From Nitrospira sp. (GTDB taxonomy: Bacteria > Pseudomonadota > Gammaproteobacteria > Acidiferrobacterales > SPGG2): 34,687 nt of DNA. Below are positions 1 through 22,830 of the stretch, in pieces; the stretch's first letter is position 1, and the number at the start of each line of letters is the position of its first letter. Under the pieces are notes generated by a model. It was not told the origin of the DNA and ran no database searches. It saw only the letters and a program-made list of their open reading frames with translations. Made by a program: the position numbers and the translations under genes. Location: NCBI GenBank assembly GCA_019456345.1, contig VRUB01000011.1:1-34687 (forward strand), written 5' to 3'.

Positions 1-285
1 CCGATGAGAATGGACAAATGGTTCCCGACGCTGGGTGCCGCCCCGCGCGGCATGGAAGGCATGATGACTTTCATGATGAAACAAAAGATGAAGGCCAAGG
101 GTATTGCGAGTGTGGAGGAATTGCGCGATGTTTGTATTGAAGCAGACGTTAAGCTGATCGGCTGCCAGATGACGGTCGACCTGTTTGATTTCAAGCGCGG
201 CGATCTGATTGATGGTATCGACTATGGCGGCGCTTCCACCTTTGTTGAATTCGCCGGCGACGCCAATGTGAGCCTGTTTATCTAG
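1..285 (+). CDS. dsrE2: DsrE2-like sulfurtransferase, C-terminal part (5' end outside window)
   Basis: The open frame enters from the left edge, so only about the last 95 residues are visible. The sequence shows a Met-rich stretch (GMEGMMTFMMKQKMK) followed by the conserved motif LIGCQMTVDLF, whose cysteine is the expected persulfide carrier of the DsrE/DsrF/DsrH-like superfamily, DsrE2 branch. Proteins of this branch pass sulfane sulfur between rhodanese, TusA and DsrEFH in sulfur oxidisers. Some sulfur oxidisers carry dsrE2 just before dsrAB, which fits the dsrB remnant that follows. The reading frame is intact up to its stop. The ATG at base 4 is internal rather than the true start, because the family is clearly longer. 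Assignment to the branch is by motif memory and not by alignment. Confidence 0.75.
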   Translation, partial: PMRMDKWFPTLGAAPRGMEGMMTFMMKQKMKAKGIASVEELRDVCIEADVKLIGCQMTVDLFDFKRGDLIDGIDYGGASTFVEFAGDANVSLFI

Positions 286-321
286 CAAGATGCCTTAGGC
301 GGTATACAGCTAGGTCGATGA

Positions 322-697
322 AAAAAATACGTATGCTGCGGCGCGCGCTATCCGCCGTGCCCGCCGATGCAGATCAATGATCCCGAGCACTCGAAGCTGG
401 CGATCCCGGTGGGGGCAACCACTTGAACGCCCGCAGCCGGTCGAGTTTTCAGACGCTGGTGGCAGTGGGGGGGCGAACAACCTGCCGCGTTGGCCGGAGG
501 CTACGGCGATCGTCAAGCGGATCCTCAAGGCCTATCAGCAAGATGCCAAGGACTGGCAGCGAATCAACGACTGGATCGATCGTATCGGCGGGCCCCGGTT
601 TTTTGAGCTGACGATCTTGCCGTTTACAAAGTTCCACGTTGACAATTGGCGTGGATCTCGCAAGAGCCTCAACGCTTCAACGTATATCCGCTTCTGA
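322..697 (+). pseudogene. dsrB: Remnant of dsrB (reverse dissimilatory sulfite reductase beta subunit), C-terminal end only
   Basis: Three frames together spell the DsrB C-terminus. Frame 1 (322 to about 417) gives GARYPPCPPMQINDPEHSKL. Frame 3 (about 418-474) gives NARSRSSFQTLVAVGG. Frame 2 (about 475-697) gives NNLPRWPEATAIVKRILKAY, then FFELTILPFTKFHVDNW and the end LNASTYIRF. The switches lie at G runs near 412-416 and 466-472, where one base lost in each run would explain both. The usual Trp of the IGWPRFFE motif is Gly here. A stop codon (319-321) precedes the first frame. About 120 of some 350 residues remain, and the siroheme/Fe-S core is missing. dsrA is absent. The gene therefore cannot make sulfite reductase. 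It precedes dsrE by 23 bp, the normal dsrB-dsrE order. Confidence 0.85.
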
Positions 698-720
698 TAG
701 CGATGCAAGGAAGTTAACGC

Positions 721-1113
721 ATGAAGTTTGGCATAGTGGTAAACGAGGGGCCCTACACGCACGAGGCCTCCGACACAGCGTACCAATTCAGCAAGGCGGC
801 CCTTGAGAAAGGGCACGAGGTTCTGCGCGTGTTCTTCTACCATGACGGCGTGAATAACGGTACTCGGTTAACCACGCCGCCCCAGGATGATCGCCACATT
901 ACGAATCGCTGGAGCGAGCTTGCTGAGCAGCATGGGCTCGATTTGGTTGTGTGTATTGCCGCCGCGCAGCGGCGCGGCATTGTGGATCCTGATGAAGCCA
1001 AGCGTCAAGGTAAGGACGCGAACAACATCGCTTCTGGCTTCCGTATCTCGGGCTTGGGCCAGCTGATTGAGGTGGGTATCCAGGCGGATCGCCTGATGGT
1101 CTTTGGCGATTAG
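721..1113 (+). CDS. dsrE: Sulfurtransferase DsrE
   Basis: A 130-residue protein starting with MKFGIVVNEGPYTHEASDTA, full length for DsrE. The cysteine in LVVCIAAAQRRGI falls at residue 78, the same number as the catalytic Cys78 described for Allochromatium vinosum DsrE. In that organism DsrE forms an E2F2H2 hexamer with DsrF and DsrH and hands sulfur to DsrC in the cytoplasm. The start is supported by an AAGGAAG ribosome site 9 bp upstream of the ATG. The gene sits between the dsrB stub and dsrF and appears intact. With dsrAB missing here, any activity would need to feed another sulfur acceptor or a reductase encoded elsewhere. Confidence 0.93.
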   Translation: MKFGIVVNEGPYTHEASDTAYQFSKAALEKGHEVLRVFFYHDGVNNGTRLTTPPQDDRHITNRWSELAEQHGLDLVVCIAAAQRRGIVDPDEAKRQGKDANNIASGFRISGLGQLIEVGIQADRLMVFGD

Positions 1114-1126
1114 TGGGTTTCAGGCA

Positions 1127-1526
1127 ATGGAAGAGATGATGGAAGAGGGCGGGAGCAGCGGTGGCGTCACCAAGAAGTTCATGTACATCAACCGGCGCGC
1201 ACCTTACGGCACGATCTACGCACTGGAGGGTCTCGAGGTGGTGCTCATAGGCGCTGCATTTGAGCAGGATGTGAGCATGGTATTTCTGGACGATGGCGTG
1301 TTTCAGCTGAAGAAGGGTCAGAACACCGAGGAGGCGGAGATGAAAAACTTTTTCACCGGCCTACCGAGCCCTGGCGATGTATGATGTTGAAAAGCTGTAC
1401 GTTGAAAAGGAGTCCATGGAGCAACGCGGTTTGACTGCGGATGACTTGATCGTACCGGTCGAGATCCTGAGCACGTCCGAGCTCGCAGATCTCATGGAAC
1501 AGCAGGATGTCATTTTGGATTATTAG
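1127..1526 (+). pseudogene. dsrF: DsrF, split by a single-base frameshift
   Basis: The first frame reads KKFMYINRRAPYGTIYALEG and VVLIGAAFEQDVSMVFLDDG, typical DsrF, but runs to a stop at 1382-1384. The rest of DsrF continues one frame over, from about 1348 to the stop at 1524-1526, as NFSPAYRALAMYDVEKLYVE and on to LADLMEQQDVILDY. The shift maps to a run of five T in AAAAACTTTTTCACC (about 1340-1354). With four T the protein would be read through in one frame at normal family length (about 132 residues). DsrF is the third partner of the DsrEFH hexamer. Either this is a real recent mutation or a homopolymer sequence error. An upstream TTG at 1103 is a less likely start because it lies inside dsrE. 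Confidence 0.88.
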
Positions 1527-1541
1527 TGACGCTGACGGCTC

Positions 1542-1844
1542 ATGTTACACACGGTCAATAAATCACCCTACGAGAAGAATAGTCTGGATACGTGCCTGCG
1601 GCTTGCTAAGCAAGGCAGTGCGATATTGTTGATCGAGGATGGGGTGTACGCTGCGATGGGTGGAACGTCTGAGACCGACAAGATGAAAAGGGCGACCGAT
1701 GCGCACAACGTGTATGTTCTGGGGCCGGACCTGAAAGCGCGTGGGCTGGATGAGGCTCAGGTCATCGATGGGATCAAGGTTGTCGGATACGACGGTTTTG
1801 TTGATTTGGCCGTCGAACCTAATACGGTCCAATCCTGGCTTTAA
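1542..1844 (+). CDS. dsrH: Sulfurtransferase DsrH (TusB family)
   Basis: A 100-residue protein starting MLHTVNKSPYEKNSLDTCLR. Length and sequence (AILLIEDGVYAA in the first half, VVGYDGFVDLAVEP near the end) match DsrH/TusB. The cysteine at residue 18, in SLDTCLRL, corresponds to the single conserved cysteine of DsrH. It lies 15 bp after the dsrF stop, in the normal dsrEFHC order. In the known system DsrH is the small subunit of the DsrEFH sulfur-carrier hexamer. The gene appears intact. No strong ribosome site is visible before the ATG, so translation may be coupled to dsrF, which would be upset by the dsrF frameshift. Confidence 0.92.
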   Translation: MLHTVNKSPYEKNSLDTCLRLAKQGSAILLIEDGVYAAMGGTSETDKMKRATDAHNVYVLGPDLKARGLDEAQVIDGIKVVGYDGFVDLAVEPNTVQSWL

Positions 1845-1887
1845 TGTAGGCGTAACGTTAAGCACGTAAATTCGAGGAAGCTGCAAG

Positions 1888-2220
1888 ATGACGCTTGAAG
1901 TGGGTGGAAAAGTCCTGGAAACCGACGAGGAAGGTTATATCGCCAATCTGAGCGATTGGAGCTCGGAGGTAGCGGAAAAGATGGCGGCCGACGATGGCTG
2001 CGATCTTACGGAAAATCACTGGGAAGTAATCAATTTCTTGCGCGAATACTATCAGGAGTATCAGATTGCTCCAAAGGTTCGCGTCCTTACCAAGGCTATT
2101 GGTAAAAGGCTTGGAGCGGACAAGGGCAACAGCATGTACCTCTACGAGTTGTTTCCGTACGGGCCGATCAAGCAGGCCTGTAAGTACGCCGGCCTACCGA
2201 AGCCGACAGGCTGCGTTTAA
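1888..2220 (+). CDS. dsrC: Sulfur carrier protein DsrC
   Basis: A 110-residue full-length DsrC. The flexible C-terminal arm ends QACKYAGLPKPTGCV. The two redox cysteines are Cys98 and the penultimate Cys109, with the usual ten residues between them. This arrangement marks true DsrC, able to carry a trisulfide, rather than a TusE-like relative with a single cysteine. In sulfur oxidisers DsrC takes sulfur from DsrEFH, presents it to DsrAB and exchanges electrons with DsrMKJOP. A GAGGAA ribosome site precedes the ATG. The gene looks fully functional although the enzymes that act on its cargo are deleted on both sides, which is the main oddity of the locus. Confidence 0.96.
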   Translation: MTLEVGGKVLETDEEGYIANLSDWSSEVAEKMAADDGCDLTENHWEVINFLREYYQEYQIAPKVRVLTKAIGKRLGADKGNSMYLYELFPYGPIKQACKYAGLPKPTGCV

Positions 2221-2280
2221 TTTAACCGCCAGGGGATGATCCCCCGGCGTGCCGCTCTCACCGTGCGAGGCTGCGGAACG

Positions 2281-2388
2281 ATGTCGGTCGTAATGCTTGT
2301 GTACGCGCTACTGTTTTATGTTGCAACGGCAGTGCTGCTGGGCGGTTTGGCGTACCGAGTTCAACGTTATGCGCGCACGACTCGCTAG
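2281..2388 (+). pseudogene. dsrM: Remnant of dsrM, first 35 codons
   Basis: A 35-codon frame reads MSVVMLVYALLFYVATAVLL and then GGLAYRVQRYARTTR before a TAG. This matches the N-terminal membrane helix and following cytoplasmic turn of DsrM, the cytochrome b (NarI-like) subunit of the DsrMKJOP complex, as I remember it (LYALLFYVATAVLLVGLA). It lies 60 bp after dsrC, exactly where dsrM stands in dsrABEFHCMK operons. The remaining roughly 200 residues and dsrKLJOP are absent: the next gene is an MFS transporter. The piece is short, so the call rests on both sequence and position. Confidence 0.75.
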
Positions 2389-2447: not shown

Positions 2448-3674
2448 ATGCCGGCGAATACCTTCCGTCAGACCTTTCGTTCCCTCAGACATCGAAATTA
2501 CCGTCTCTACTTCTTCGGCCAGCTGGTGTCGTTGCACGGTACGTGGATGCAGACGGTGGCCCAGGCCTGGCTCGTTTACCGGTTGACAAACTCGAGCTTC
2601 ATGCTGGGCCTTGTCGCGTTTTGCAGCCTGGCACCCGTTCTCGTGCTCGGCCTGCTTGGTGGAGTGGTCGCCGACCGCTACCGGCGGCGAAAACTGTTAA
2701 TCGCAGGACATACGGCGGCGATGGTTCATGCGGCGGTATTGGCGATGCTCACGTTCGGGGGCTGGATCACCGCCTGGCAAATCGTGGTGCTCGCATTGAT
2801 TCTAGGGGTGGTCCTCGCATTTGAGATGCCGGCCAGGCACGCCTTCATCACGGAGCTGGTGCCGCGGGAGGACCTGCCGAATGCGATTCCATTGAACTCC
2901 AGTGTGTTTAATGTTGCGCGTTTCGTGGGCCCATCGATTGCCGGTTGGCTGGTGGCGTTCTACGGTGAAGGCACGGTTTTCCTGGTCAACGCCGCAAGCT
3001 TCGCGGCCGTTCTGGTGGCGTTGTTAATGATACGTGTGGTCGAGAGGCCGGCGGCGCCGGCGGCGGGCTCGGTCTACGGGCACCTGCTGCAGGGGCTGGA
3101 GTTCGCCTGGCGACAGCCGCAGATACGCGCCGGCCTGCTGGTAGTAGGTATGATCAGTCTGGTGGCGGCATCAGTGACCGTACTGATGCCAGTCTTTGCC
3201 AAGGAGACGTTCAGTGGCGGACCGACGACCCTGGGGCTGTTGCTGGCCGCAATCGGGATGGGCGCGTTGGCCGGCGCACTGCGACTCGCTTACCGGCTGT
3301 CCGGTGATGGGCTCGAGCGTAGTATCGGTGTGGCCACCGTGGGGGCCGGGATCTGTGTGCTGGTGTTCTCGTTTATCGATACATTGGCACTGGCATTGCC
3401 GATTCTGGTGTTTGCCGGTTTCGCGCACACGACCACGGCGGCCTCCACCAATACCCTTATACAGCTTACTGTGGATGACAGATTACGTGGCCGTGTGATG
3501 TCACTGTTTTCGATGATCTTCATCGGTTTGATGCCATTGGGGAGCCTGCTTGCAGGCGCGCTTGCGCAGCGACTCGGTGCGCCGGCAACAGTCGGGTTGT
3601 TCGGCCTGGGCTGTACCGTGGCCGCCGCCGGGTATCTATACAGCGCGCGTCGAAAATTGTCGGCTTCGGGTTAA
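2448..3674 (+). CDS. MFS transporter, EntS-like (MFS_3 family)
   Basis: A protein of 408 residues with about twelve hydrophobic segments. After a short N-terminus, the segment RNYRLYFFGQLVSLHGTWMQ is typical of the MFS_3/enterobactin-exporter-like branch. The intracellular loop GGVVADRYRRRKLL carries the MFS signature (G-x-x-x-D-R-x-x-R-R). Members export small molecules by proton antiport across the inner membrane, and the substrate here is not predictable. I chose the ATG at 2448 over the TTG at 2424 because family members start just before the FRSLRHRNYR element. The gene begins 59 bp after the dsrM stub. That places it at the right edge of the dsr deletion, so it probably had its own promoter or was joined to the dsr transcript by the deletion. 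Confidence 0.88.
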   Translation: MPANTFRQTFRSLRHRNYRLYFFGQLVSLHGTWMQTVAQAWLVYRLTNSSFMLGLVAFCSLAPVLVLGLLGGVVADRYRRRKLLIAGHTAAMVHAAVLAMLTFGGWITAWQIVVLALILGVVLAFEMPARHAFITELVPREDLPNAIPLNSSVFNVARFVGPSIAGWLVAFYGEGTVFLVNAASFAAVLVALLMIRVVERPAAPAAGSVYGHLLQGLEFAWRQPQIRAGLLVVGMISLVAASVTVLMPVFAKETFSGGPTTLGLLLAAIGMGALAGALRLAYRLSGDGLERSIGVATVGAGICVLVFSFIDTLALALPILVFAGFAHTTTAASTNTLIQLTVDDRLRGRVMSLFSMIFIGLMPLGSLLAGALAQRLGAPATVGLFGLGCTVAAAGYLYSARRKLSASG

Positions 3675-3752: not shown

Positions 3753-4082
3753 ATGCACGATGCATATATCAAGGTTGCGCGCACCGACGATATTCAGCCG
3801 GGCAAGATGAAGCGCGTGGAGATCGCGGGCTGCCCTGTGCTCGTGGCGCAGGTGAATGGTGATTACTATGCTGTCGCTGATACCTGCACGCACGAGGACG
3901 CTTCGCTCTCGACCGGCTCGCTAAAAGGCGAGCTAGTCAAATGTCCGTTGCACGGCAGCCGCTTCAACGTCATCACCGGTGAGGTACTGGAAGAACCAGC
4001 CGAGGAAAACCTCAAGACGTATGCCCTCAGGATCGATGGTGACTACATTTTTGTTGAAAACCCGAATGCGCGACAGTCCTGA
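3753..4082 (+). CDS. Rieske-type [2Fe-2S] ferredoxin
   Basis: A soluble 109-residue protein. Rieske ligands are visible as CTHEDASL (Cys45, His47) and CPLHGSRF (Cys64, His67), with the usual spacing. The small size, the lack of a membrane anchor and the ending with a DYIFVENP strand fit the ferredoxin subunits of ring-hydroxylating or nitrite-reductase-like systems (NirD/BphF fold). It would carry one electron in the cytoplasm, and no oxygenase partner is next to it. A GGAGACGGG ribosome site precedes the ATG. It lies between the MFS gene and a minus-strand gene scrap, so its original partner may have been lost. Confidence 0.9.
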   Translation: MHDAYIKVARTDDIQPGKMKRVEIAGCPVLVAQVNGDYYAVADTCTHEDASLSTGSLKGELVKCPLHGSRFNVITGEVLEEPAEENLKTYALRIDGDYIFVENPNARQS

Positions 4083-4314: not shown

Positions 4315-5733
4315 TCAGTCAGTGGACTGCGCGATGTCGTTTTCATGCATCGGCTCAAACCAGGCGAGCTTGTCATGCAGCCGGACCACTTCGCCCACGA
4401 TGACCAGCGTCGGTGCATGCACCTGGGCCTCGGTCACGATGCCCGGCAATGTCCTGAGATCTCCAACGAATACTCGCTGTTGCGGCGTCGTTCCGTGCTC
4501 GACCAGGGCGGCAGGCATGTCGGGCGACATGCCATGGCGGACGAGCTCCTGACAAACTACCTCTAATCCCGTGAGCGCCATATAGAAAACGATCGTCTGC
4601 TGCGGTTGCACCAGTGCGTTCCAGTTCAAATTGACGGTACCGTCCTGCAAATGGCCCGTAACGAAAACGCAGGACTGCGAGTAATCTCGATGGGTGAGCG
4701 GAATGCCGGCATAGGCAGCGCAGCCTGAGGCGGCGGTAATACCGGGCACGACTTGAAACGGTACTCCTTCCTCCGCCAGTGTATCGATCTCTTCTCCGCC
4801 GCGCCCGAATATGAAGGGATCGCCCCCCTTCAGGCGCAGTACCCGCTTTCCTTCCTTGGCCAGGCGTACCATCAGCTGGTGAATCTCATCCTGCCGAACG
4901 GTATGGTAGTCACGCCGCTTTCCCACGTAGATTTGCTGCGCGTCGCGTCGCGTCAGGTCCAGAACCTCTTTGCTCACGAGCCGGTCGTAGAGCACGATAT
5001 CTGCCTGTTGCATGAGGCGCAACGCGCGGAAGGTGAGGAGGTCGGGGTCACCCGGTCCGCCACCGACAATGTAGACCTCTCCCGTTTCGTACCCGGCACC
5101 GGGCGCCTCCTCGACCGCGTGCTCCAAGGCTCGATAGGCGGCCTTCTCCTGTCCGGCGAACAGCATCTCTGCGATCGGACCCTGCAAGACCTTTTCCCAG
5201 AATCGGTGGCGCTGCTGCGTTGTGGGAAAGCAGACTTTAACCTGCGCCCGGAATTTTTCCACCAGCGCTGCCAGCCGCCCATAGGCAGCCGGAATCAAGG
5301 TCTCAAGGCGGGCGCGAAGCAACCGCGCCAACACCGGGGAGGCGCCGCCGCTGGAGACGGCAATGAGCATCGGCGAGCGGTCGATAATGGAAGGCATAAT
5401 AAAACTGCAAAGCTCAGGGTGGTCGACCACGTTAACGGGAATTCCGCGCTCACGGACCGCCGAGGAGACCTGGCGGTTAACGGCAGCGTCATTCGTGGCC
5501 GCGACCACCAGCACGTAACCATCAAGGTCGGCGGGCGTGAAGGTAGTCGGCCGATACGTGATTTGTCCCTTCGTGGCTTGTTTCGCCAGAGTCTCGCACA
5601 ATGCCGGCGCGGTGACGGTCACGCGCGCGCCAGCTCGACGCAACAGCGAAACCTTGCGTGCGGCCACCTCGCCACCGCCTACGACAAGGCAGGCGCGGTC
5701 TCTGATGTTTAGAAATATGGGCAGAAAGTCCAT
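4315..5733 (-). CDS. cysG: Siroheme synthase CysG (fused dehydrogenase/ferrochelatase and uroporphyrinogen-III methyltransferase)
   Basis: A protein of 472 residues with both halves of CysG. The N-terminal part ([20 protein letters not shown] near residue 20, [27 protein letters not shown]) is the precorrin-2 dehydrogenase and sirohydrochlorin ferrochelatase module. From about residue 220 the SUMT module follows ([51 protein letters not shown]). Together they turn uroporphyrinogen III into siroheme. The start at [13 protein letters not shown] (5733) fits the family better than the upstream alternative at 5769. Siroheme is the cofactor of DsrAB and of assimilatory sulfite and nitrite reductases. 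Its survival near a deleted dsrAB suggests another siroheme enzyme in the genome. Confidence 0.96.
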
Positions 5734-5883
5734 TGGCGTCGGCTCGGGGTGATGCAGATAAATCACCAAAACCGTGGCGTTGAGAATATCCTGTTATTGA
5801 TAGTGCGTCTCCCCTTGGGGTAATGGTCACCGCTGCGCCGGTTCAGTGCCGTGCACGCTCCCGTCGCCCAAGGTGCGGTAAAG

Positions 5884-7920: not shown

Positions 7921-8172
7921 TCAGAATGACTTGCCGACGCCGACCAAAATCGCATCCGATTTGTACGTGCCATTGAAGGCGTTCGTGCCGTGCGGATCGC
8001 CGCCGGCGAACGGGGTTGTGTTGCTAATGGTACGGTCGTCCCAATCGACGAACATGTTGGTTCCCTCGAGGTCCCAGGTCTTTATACGTTGTTTGACGCC
8101 GAAGCTAACAAACTGGTGGTAGGCATCGGGAATCCTAGCGGTAAACGTTGCATCGGGCTGCGGCGTTTCGCA
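7921..8172 (-). pseudogene. C-terminal remnant of a FadL/TodX-family outer membrane transporter
   Basis: Minus strand, ending at 7921: the frame reads ETPQPDATFTARIPDAYHQF, then VSFGVKQRIKTWDLEGTNMF, and ends YKSDAILVGVGKSF before TGA. The Pro-Asp-Ala plus ARIPDA block followed by a beta-strand pattern and a terminal Phe is the usual C-terminus of OmpP1/FadL/TodX hydrophobic-compound transporters. About 84 residues of some 450 survive. The upstream part is missing, and the similarity ends within a few bases of where the plus-strand PEP synthase piece begins, marking a deletion or rearrangement joint near 8170. Confidence 0.8.
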
Positions 8173-8285
8173 GAGATCGGCATTAAAGACGTCGCATTCG
8201 TCGGAGGCAAGAATGCCTCACTGGGGGAGATGTACCGGGAGCTCGCGGGCAAAAGCGTCAAGGTGTCGAATGGGTTTGCAATCAC
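8167..8285 (+). pseudogene. ppsA: Internal N-terminal piece of phosphoenolpyruvate synthase
   Basis: Plus strand, frame 1, reads FAEIGIKDVAFVGGKNASLG then EMYRELAGKSVKVSNGFAIT. The GGKNASLGEM motif is the hallmark of the N-terminal ATP-grasp region of PEP synthase and PPDK-like enzymes. Only about 40 of some 790 residues are present, with neither start nor continuation. On the left it meets the FadL remnant, and on the right it changes frame into a SAM synthetase piece at about 8285. Confidence 0.8.
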
Positions 8286-8288
8286 GGC

Positions 8289-8642
8289 CGCGATAACCGT
8301 GCCAATGGCGTCATCGCCCCCTATCGGCCGATGACTTTGGAGGCGGTGGCCGACAAGAATGCCGTGACCCATGTCGGCAAGCTGCATAACCTGGCCGCCC
8401 GGGCGATTTCGGAGGCCCTGAGCTCTGAGCCCGGGGAGATCAGTGCGGCCCGCTGTGCGCTGGTGAGCCGAATCGGCCAGCCGGTCCATACCCCGCAGAT
8501 TGTCGATATTGAGGTCACCACGGCCGATGAGGGGCTCGGTCCGGGGCTGTGGGCACGCATCCGCGCGATCACCGAAACCAAGCTCCAGGGGATCAATACC
8601 CTGTGGCAGAAGGTGATTAGGGGGTCTGTGGCGATATATTAA
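8289..8642 (+). pseudogene. C-terminal piece of an archaeal-type S-adenosylmethionine synthetase
   Basis: The frame reads RDNRANGVIAPYRPMTLEAV then ADKNAVTHVGKLHNLAARAI, and ends KVIRGSVAIY before TAA. The blocks NGxIxPYRPMxLEAxAxKN, HVGK, and VSRIGQPVHTPQIVDIEV match the C-terminal third of the archaeal-type methionine adenosyltransferase family, which is unrelated in sequence to bacterial MetK. About 117 of some 400 residues remain. Upstream residues of the enzyme are replaced by the PEP synthase piece. The segment has no in-frame start with a ribosome site, so expression is unlikely. Confidence 0.8.
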
Positions 8643-11113: not shown

Positions 11114-11620
11114 GTGAAACCCGTTTTCCATCCCCAGTTGCTGAATGATTCCTTCAGTGATTCTGGGGTCTAAGTCGAATTCCTCTTTGGCAAGCGGGCG
11201 ATACTCTTCGACCTTGGGGATGTGAGCAGGCTCACCCCGCGTAAAATCCTGCGCATCAATGACGTGTTCGTGTCGCATACGCACATGGACCATTTCGTAG
11301 GATTCGATCAAGTGCTGCGTATTTTTTTGGAACGACGAAGTCGACTGCGTCTGTTCGGGCCACCGGGATTCATCGATCGGGTCGAGCACAAGCTCGTGGC
11401 CTACGCTTGGAACCTAATTCACAATTACGAAAACGACTTTACGCTTGATGTCACGGAGGTCGATATCGACGGGCAGGCGCACAGCGCTTCTGTCCGGTGC
11501 CGAACGGCGTTTGAGCAGGCTCGGGCACCAATGGCGCGTCAACTGGGGGCGGCCGCTGACAGGTTCTCGGCGCACCGCTCTCACACACGACGGGCCTTGC
11601 CGATTTATGCGGCTATATGA
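11114..11620 (+). pseudogene. MBL-fold hydrolase (RNase Z-like), broken by a nonsense codon and C-terminal loss
   Basis: From GTG at 11114 the frame reads MKPVFHPQLLNDSFSDSGV, then a TAA at 11171-11173, then VEFLFGKRAILFDLGDVSRL, TPRKILRINDVFVSHTHMDH and FVGFDQVLRI in the same frame. The HTHMDH zinc motif and FDLGD strand identify a metallo-beta-lactamase fold of the RNase Z-like branch. The stop replaces what is probably Tyr (family: PGVYVEFLF-like). After VRCRTAFE (about 11507) the family sequence is lost, and the frame ends at 11620. The protein would lack most of its metal ligands. No start with a good ribosome site exists after the stop codon. Confidence 0.8.
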
Positions 11621-17828: not shown

Positions 17829-18279
17829 GACTAGTCCATCATCTACATACGCGAGGCTTGCCAGTGTCAGCACAAGGCGAGCGGTGGAGCCCCGTCTGCG
17901 CTCCCGAACAAGCCCCGAATGGGGGCGAGAGCAGGATGCCTCGCCCGAGCGCCGGGACAGGGGTGAGCCGGGCAAAGACGAGTGCCCGGTGGACGCTCGT
18001 CCCGGCGAACGGGCCTGCCACAGACGGCAAGCCCCGGGCTTTGATGCCCGCCATCCGTGGCGTGCCCCCTGCGGGTCGCCTCCGGCGGTCCAATTTCGCT
18101 CCCGGCGAAATTGTCAAGCATCGCAGGAGAGCATAGCGATGAAAGTCCCGTCGGGCGGCTCGGGGCGCAGGCCAGAAAAGGCGAGGAGTGGTACAGGGAC
18201 GTACCGTCCACGGAGCCGAGGATGCAAACCCTGGAGCCGCTTGCTGACACCGGGGAGCCCGTACGTGGCTCAATCGGCC
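17829..18279. repeat. GC-rich structured repeat island between phoH and the nrdJ stub
   Basis: No real gene, although GC-rich open frames cross it on both strands. Segment 17957-18040 is clearly related to 21696-21780 (shared ACAGGGGTGAG, CCGAACGGGC or CGAACGGGC, GGCAAGCCCC or GGCGAGCCCC), with compensating changes in the stems (ACGAG/CTCGT here, AAAAGTG/CACTTTT there). Segment 18095-18160 is repeated at 22696-22761. Its right edge meets the point where nrdJ homology ends. Confidence 0.8.
18095..18160 (+). repeat. 66-bp dispersed repeat, copy 1
   Basis: It begins TTCGCTCCCGGCGAAATTGT and includes GCAGGAGAGCATA. About 60 of 66 bases are identical to 22696-22761 in the same orientation. GGCGAAATT and neighbouring sequence can fold back on TTCGCTCCCGGCGAA. 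Confidence 0.85.
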
Positions 18280-18765
18280 TCACGCTCGATGCTGCAGCAG
18301 TGTGGCGCACATGCTGTCCCAGATGCGCATGAAGGAAACGGGACCGGAAGCGATACTCCCGGTCGTGCGTGCCCGCGTGCCGTATGGCCGCAGGGTAGAG
18401 AAATCGTAACCCACGCCCCCTCCCTGCTGCATGGTGAGCGCACCTTCCTTAAGATTATCGAAAATGCTGTCCATCGAGTCCTCGATGATCCCCATCACAA
18501 AACAGTTCAACAGCGTGACCTTGTGATGAGTCCCGGCACCGGCCTGGATGCGCCCCCCCGGGAGAAACTTGAAACCCTCCAGCACCCCGCAGAAATGCTG
18601 CTCCCAGTGCTCACGGTCTTTGCGTTCGGTTCCCGCCAACGCGCACGCGATGCGCTGCCACGTATCTGCCACCGTGCGATCATGGATCACGTTGCCGACA
18701 CGGTAACGGTACTTGGTGTCCCAAATGTGGCGGGCGATGTCGGTGGTGAAATACTGTCTGGTCAT
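18280..18765 (-). pseudogene. nrdJ: 5' fragment of adenosylcobalamin-dependent ribonucleotide reductase
   Basis: A 161-codon frame with class II ribonucleotide reductase N-terminal sequence: ISR-like start, HIWDTKYRYR, FKFLPGGRIQAGAG, VTLLNCFVMGIIEDSMDSIF, GALTMQQGGGVGYDFSTLRP, GPVSFMRIWDSMCATLL. After ATLL the family continues STGARRGAMM, but here the frame reads QHRA and stops, at the edge of the repeat island. Most of the catalytic barrel and the C-terminal cysteines are missing, so the product cannot be active. Ribonucleotide reduction must be supplied by another gene. The start is ATG at 18765, with a GTG directly before it. Confidence 0.85.
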
Positions 18766-18784
18766 CACTGAGGTGTCGGGACGG

Positions 18785-22508: not shown

Positions 22509-22830
22509 AGATTAAGGTGTTGCCTGCGGCGACGATTTACTAGCCGGGTCTCGTCCCGGCGGACGATGTCCTTTCTTGTCGCGACAAGATAAGGATGCAA
22601 AGAAACGCTCCCCTGACTCTGCGCTACGCAGCGAAAAGCGCTGCGGGGTTTCCGCGCTCGTCGGTCGGCTTAGAAGGTTCGCGGAAGGAACTTTCTTCGC
22701 TCCCGGCGAAATTGTCAAGCGTTGCAGGAGAGCATAACGATGAAAGGCTCGTCGGGAGGCTTCAGGCCGTGGCGGAAACGGCAGAACGTTGGAGCCGACC
22801 GGTGACGCCGGCGGGACGCAAGCAACGCAC
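22509..22830. other. 322-bp gap between polX fragment and rtcB, mostly repeat sequence
   Basis: It contains the second copy of the 66-bp repeat and further GC-rich hairpin sequence (for example GCGCTACGCAGCGAAAAGCG near 22620-22640). The minus-strand open frame over it resembles the frame over the 18095 copy only because the DNA is repeated. No gene is supported. Confidence 0.6.
22696..22761 (+). repeat. 66-bp dispersed repeat, copy 2
   Basis: About 91% identical to 18095-18160 in the same orientation. Flanking sequence differs, so the unit moves or is copied as a module independent of the 21696-21780 module. Confidence 0.85.

Follow-up and report, generated by a model that had tools for sequence, protein, structure and literature searches.

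A relic dsr operon in which sulfur-carrier genes outlast the reductase, perhaps shrinking to a TusBCDE-like relay

The carrier block and its closest known relatives

Oxidative dsr operons of the Allochromatium vinosum type have the gene order dsrABEFHCMKLJOPN, and four of the encoded proteins, DsrE, DsrF, DsrH and DsrC, match the TusBCD-TusE proteins that serve tRNA 2-thiouridine formation in E. coli. Of the two conserved cysteines of DsrC, CysA is penultimate in the protein, and CysB occurs almost only alongside DsrAB, being almost always replaced in organisms that lack DsrAB and in TusE; the exceptions are Methylococcaceae, Marinobacter and Lawsonia (PMC3397948).

The 34,687 nucleotides of the window form a complete contig (G000:C44:1-34687). 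It belongs to G000, a metagenome-assembled genome (MAG) of 2.99 Mb in 413 contigs that is 84.6% complete and 4.5% contaminated, with about 15% of the genome missing. The reference for comparison was the complete dsrABEFHCMKLJOPN operon of a finished genome from the same order (L031); the full operon is also kept in two genomes of the same family, G001 and G002 (loci L024; L128 + L025). The remaining dsr genes of the window share both gene order and sequence with the A. vinosum type operon: they lie in the order dsrB-E-F-H-C-M, exactly as in the complete operon, with identities of 50-81%, a fit that excludes chance. Unlike that operon, the window has no dsrA, only the end of dsrB and, of dsrMKLJOPN, just 35 codons of dsrM. 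The resemblance to TusBCD-TusE extends to the same four proteins, to Cys78 of DsrE/TusD and to the penultimate cysteine of DsrC/TusE, but the DsrC of the window retains CysB and falls short of the TusE equivalog threshold, and dsrF/tusC is frameshifted. In keeping both CysA and CysB, the window and another genome of the order, G036, are similar to Methylococcaceae and Marinobacter, where two-cysteine DsrC/TusE proteins occur without DsrAB (PMC3397948); in contrast to those, the block in the window is still flanked by decayed dsrB and dsrM, so that the loss is visible in progress.

All the dsr genes of the window are on the forward strand. The first, dsrE2 (1-285), is represented by its C-terminal 94 codons, which match positions 66-159 of the 159 positions of the NCBIfam profile NF047629 with 148 bits. 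Because contig C44 begins at position 1, the truncation is technical, caused by the assembly rather than by evolution. The TusD-type dsrE (721-1113) is intact, scoring 163 bits against TIGR03012 (cut-off 89), with none of its 53 conserved sites broken; the TusB-type dsrH (1542-1844), with 106 bits against TIGR03011 (cut-off 49), has 0 of 17 broken; and dsrC (1888-2220), with 160 bits against TIGR03342 (cut-off 53.5), has 2 of 42 broken. The DsrC of the window carries the substitutions A64K and K84M (reference numbering). The cysteines named in an initial annotation of this sequence, Cys78 of DsrE, Cys18 of DsrH, and Cys98 (CysB) and Cys109 (CysA) of DsrC, are all present, in three frames that are open, complete and above the NCBIfam cut-offs.

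The fourth carrier gene, the TusC-type dsrF (1127-1526), was left unmentioned by that annotation, and its frame is broken: the first ORF stops at 1384, and the rest is open in frame +3 to 1526. The break is caused by one extra T, with TTTTT at about 1349-1353 where G001, G002 and G003, a MAG from a sister genus of the same family, have TTTT. The two halves score 70 and 58 bits, each under the TusC cut-off of 94 (NCBIfam profile); they are otherwise well conserved, with 0 of 32 conserved sites broken when both sides of the frameshift are pooled. An error in the consensus is possible but not the obvious reading because many other long genes on the contig are open. Programmed frameshifting seems unlikely: it would require a +1 step, and inspection by eye showed no known slippery signal. 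Among the parts of a TusBCD relay, the window thus encodes a TusD with Cys78 and a TusB but no open frame for TusC; its DsrC belongs to the TusE/DsrC/DsvC family by both the profile and the penultimate cysteine (CysA, Cys109). With dsrF frameshifted in the consensus, decay has reached the carrier genes of G000 or is about to do so.

Several other genes on the contig are incomplete. These include a fragment of the large chain of ribonucleotide reductase (18283-18768, reverse strand; 162 aa, taking in the N-terminal domain and 70 positions at the start of the barrel domain) and short pieces of a PPDK_N/PEP synthase-like gene and an MBL-fold gene (7990-8334 and 11222-11620). One copy of a 66-nt repeat (18095-18160 and 22696-22761, 91% identical) lies just past the 3' end of the ribonucleotide reductase fragment. 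Together with dsrB and dsrF, the three fragmentary genes suggest a wider gene erosion.

Joints, remnants and sequence constraint

On the left, as initially annotated, dsrA and most of dsrB are missing, and only the C-terminal third of dsrB remains. This pseudogene (306-697, residues about 236-365, with homology beginning at about 306-312) carries three 1-bp deletions and the substitutions C243Y, C249R and W331G; its Fe-S motif has lost two cysteines, reading YVCCGARYPPCPP in the window as opposed to CICCGACYPPCPP in relatives. The left joint (286-305) lies between the dsrE2 stop codon (283-285) and the start of the dsrB homology. In relatives, tusA-dsrE2 forms a separate locus, which in G001 adjoins an M48 peptidase gene, and dsrA of G002 is preceded by a dioxygenase-type gene. 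Thus dsrE2 is not the ancestral neighbour of dsrB, and the left joint is a rearrangement rather than a simple loss of dsrA. Contig C307 of G000, which carries the M48 peptidase gene that neighbours tusA in relatives, shows no overlap with the start of C44 and no tusA in the part read.

On the right, the 35-codon dsrM stub (2281-2388), with homology to relatives ending at about 2379, is followed by the joint (2389-2447) and by a gene for an MFS transporter (2448-3674, forward strand). The MFS gene is a native downstream neighbour, found in G001 after a DsrC paralogue, which speaks against an insertion of this gene as the cause of the right deletion. Beyond it come a gene for a Rieske ferredoxin-like protein (3753-4082, forward strand) and cysG (siroheme synthase; 4315-5769, reverse strand), both syntenic with G002; cysG also adjoins dsrEFHC in G003 and G036. 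The order in G002 is dsrC-dsrM...dsrN, DsrC paralogues, Rieske, cysG, compared with dsrM'-MFS-Rieske-cysG in the window. This joint is explained by a single deletion that starts at dsrM codon 35, ends shortly ahead of the MFS gene and spans about 12.4 kb, judging from the spacing in G002. Neither joint has a direct repeat of at least 40 nt, the sole one in the window being located elsewhere. The initial annotation had the two deletions ending at the edges of the carrier block; this holds on the right, where the break follows dsrM codon 35, but not on the left, where 390 bp of decayed dsrB intervene and the joint is rearranged.

The absence of the reductase genes extends beyond the window. No dsrA, intact dsrB, dsrM or dsrK was detected elsewhere in the G000 assembly (84.6% complete), and dsrL, dsrJ, dsrO and dsrP were not found within the window contig, the only place searched for them, in agreement with the initial view of the right side. 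The siroheme sulfite reductase domain occurs in G000 only in the dsrB stub and in one ORF of the assimilatory type on C236 (773 aa counted from the first start codon). A functional oxidative Dsr pathway is accordingly missing from the assembly, where dsrAB is represented by the decayed dsrB stub and DsrMKJOP, with dsrJOP sought on the window contig, by 35 codons of dsrM.

As a measure of selection on the carriers, dN/dS was dropped: between genera, synonymous sites have reached saturation (pS about 0.65-0.95), and the ratio says nothing on the time since the loss. Instead, we counted broken conserved sites, that is, changes at positions at least 97% conserved in the other loci. Such changes affect 9 of the 57 sites in the dsrB stub compared with 2 of 144 in DsrE, DsrF, DsrH and DsrC combined (Fisher p = 2.4e-4), and single-base indels number three in the 0.4 kb of the stub as against one in the 1.5 kb of the carriers (p = 0.027). 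Relaxation of dsrE and dsrC to the level of the stub, named in the initial annotation as a refuting outcome, is not what these counts show (0 of 53 and 2 of 42 sites, respectively, vs 9 of 57). The carriers are better kept than dsrB, although dsrF is broken by their one indel. Over its final 70 codons, the stub has a pN as low as in intact relatives, which indicates that the dsr loss is recent and that survival of the carriers in G000 alone is weak evidence of selection.

Recurrence in relatives and changes in DsrC

Of 57 genomes surveyed within the order, four have dsrE without dsrB: G000, G003, G036 and G050. The dsrEFHC block lies beside cysG without dsrAB or dsrMK in G003 and in G036, a distant, 98% complete genome from another family. 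G050 was ruled out as a further carrier-only case because it keeps dsrMK; its locus (L171, G050:C200:3530-6939) consists of dsrEFHCMK, with an unrelated membrane-protein gene in place of dsrAB, and no dsrB was found elsewhere in this genome (76% complete). The apparent lack of dsrE or dsrB in G041 and G045 is explained by contig ends. Six genomes from other families (G024, G037, G043, G047, G053 and G038) have neither dsrB nor dsrE; thus, carrier retention is common but not obligatory. In GTDB genomes, 80 dsrE loci were compared, and in those on long enough contigs dsrE has dsrB next to it, with one exception, the contig of G003 itself (LXTK01000279, 'Proteobacteria bacterium SPGG2').

A phoH + dapA tree groups G003 with full-operon G002 as sisters (bootstrap 100), which makes the dsr losses of G000 and G003 independent. 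The joints differ too: the G003 carriers, with dsrE, dsrF, dsrH and dsrC all open, lie behind the tusA locus, in the arrangement M48 / tusA-soxK (SAXB)-dsrEFHC. At this locus (L026, 1749-3872), dsrEFHC comes directly after tusA and soxK (SAXB), and downstream of it is a cysG pseudogene of reduced length.

In the DsrC of G003, as in TusE, CysA is retained but CysB is gone (C99G). Relative to the TusE equivalog cut-off of 191 bits, the window DsrC, with CysB, scores 126 and the G003 DsrC, without CysB, scores 122. Position 84 (reference numbering) is also different in the carrier-only genomes: about 80 loci with dsrAB have Lys here, apart from a single exception, as against Met in G000 and Arg in G003 and G036, and Arg is found as well in E. 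coli TusE and in the DsrC-like protein of G065, which lacks dsrB. The raw Fisher value of 4e-5 for this position is not corrected for site choice or relatedness and serves as a lead only. The G065 locus (L191, G065:C178, 3802-5233), from another family of the class, is a carrier-only set in which CysB is replaced by Ser. Tentatively, these genomes may form a series, from the full operon (G001, G002) through a fresh break with intact or nearly intact carriers (the window) to a carrier-only block changing towards TusE (G003), with Lys84 of DsrC kept only together with DsrAB.

Why the carriers may have stayed

We lean towards the reading that the locus is a relic dsr operon in the course of reduction to a TusBCDE-like relay for tRNA 2-thiouridine, with carriers that outlast the reductase and a relay that may already fail in G000. 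The lineage would have given up lithotrophic sulfur oxidation, leaving the oxidative operon as a relic; dsrA and most of dsrB would have been lost via the left rearrangement, and dsrMKLJOPN via one deletion on the right. The dsrEFH-dsrC genes would have been retained, probably because of a double role as a persulfide relay to tRNA wobble uridines (TusA to DsrE-Cys78 to DsrC-CysA to MnmA to tRNA), given that they are the only TusBCD homologue in the family of G000. Indeed, with E. coli TusBCD as the query, the only match in G000-G004, G014 and G036 is the dsrEFH of the dsr locus, and no second TusBCD was found in G000. A second, divergent DsrEFH/TusBCD set is present in G009 (G009:C1:2300279-2301349), whose genome is complete and has the whole dsr operon. 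MnmA, 53-59% identical to the E. coli protein, is encoded in G001, G002, G003 and G036 and was not found in G000. The mnmA neighbours clpA, clpS and purB are missing from the MAG as well; the entire clpA-clpS-mnmA-purB segment being absent, the lack of mnmA points to an assembly gap, is uninformative, and was set aside as an argument against a role in tRNA modification. Canonical TusA is not in the G000 assembly either, where the only relative is a 39% identical protein on C199; the canonical copy would fall off the contig end. By analogy with the relatives and with the known Tus pathway, a double role in tRNA thiolation is the most likely reason why the carriers were kept.

Decay of the whole locus, with the carriers simply the part not yet lost and under no selection in G000, is a possible but less probable account. 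It is consistent with the dsrF frameshift, the other truncated genes on the contig (ribonucleotide reductase, PPDK_N), the low pN in part of the dsrB stub, which implies a recent loss, and the complete loss in other families. It does not fit the carriers' having significantly fewer indels and broken conserved sites than dsrB, nor the retention of the same four genes in two independent lineages, with all four open in G003. The initial annotation had put decay and selection for another use side by side. Retention for another use is favoured by the recurrence in G003 and G036, the 2/144 vs 9/57 broken sites and the sole TusBCD homologue, with tRNA thiolation the best fit among the uses then listed; the dsrF frameshift nevertheless signals decay.

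An artefact of assembly or binning, with chimeric joints and with intact dsrAB and dsrMKJOP hidden in the unassembled remainder of the genome, seems improbable. The MAG is incomplete (84.6%, 413 contigs), with a proven gap around clpA-clpS-mnmA-purB, and the contig ends inside dsrE2, but misassembly does not produce the real decay of the dsrB stub, with its three deletions and lost Fe-S cysteines; the right joint runs into the native MFS-Rieske-cysG order, and dsrA, dsrM, dsrK and soxB are absent together. Equally hard to credit, if not slightly more so, is that the carriers feed another sulfur pathway, such as sHdr or thiosulfate or cyanide handling by DsrE2, TusA or rhodanese, to which the position of dsrE2 directly upstream in the window and of tusA and soxK (SAXB) in G003 could point. 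However, no HdrB of the sHdr type (sHdrB1/B2) was found in the G000 assembly; its three CCG-domain loci are in Lut/Glc contexts and resemble lactate and glycolate oxidation proteins rather than DsrK or sHdrB; and soxB, present in G001 and G002, is absent from G000, G003 and G036.

The proteins involved are of a known kind, and the window is an instructive transitional case, in which carriers common to both would tie an energy-metabolism operon to a housekeeping tRNA pathway. It cautions that the presence of dsrC and dsrEFH in a MAG does not demonstrate sulfur oxidation. Genomes of this kind may provide a natural before-and-after series for separating what DsrC needs for DsrAB from what it needs for tRNA thiolation. 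If the preferred reading of a dsr relic turning into a tRNA-thiolation relay is correct, this family may display, at different stages, the origin of a Tus relay from a dsr operon.
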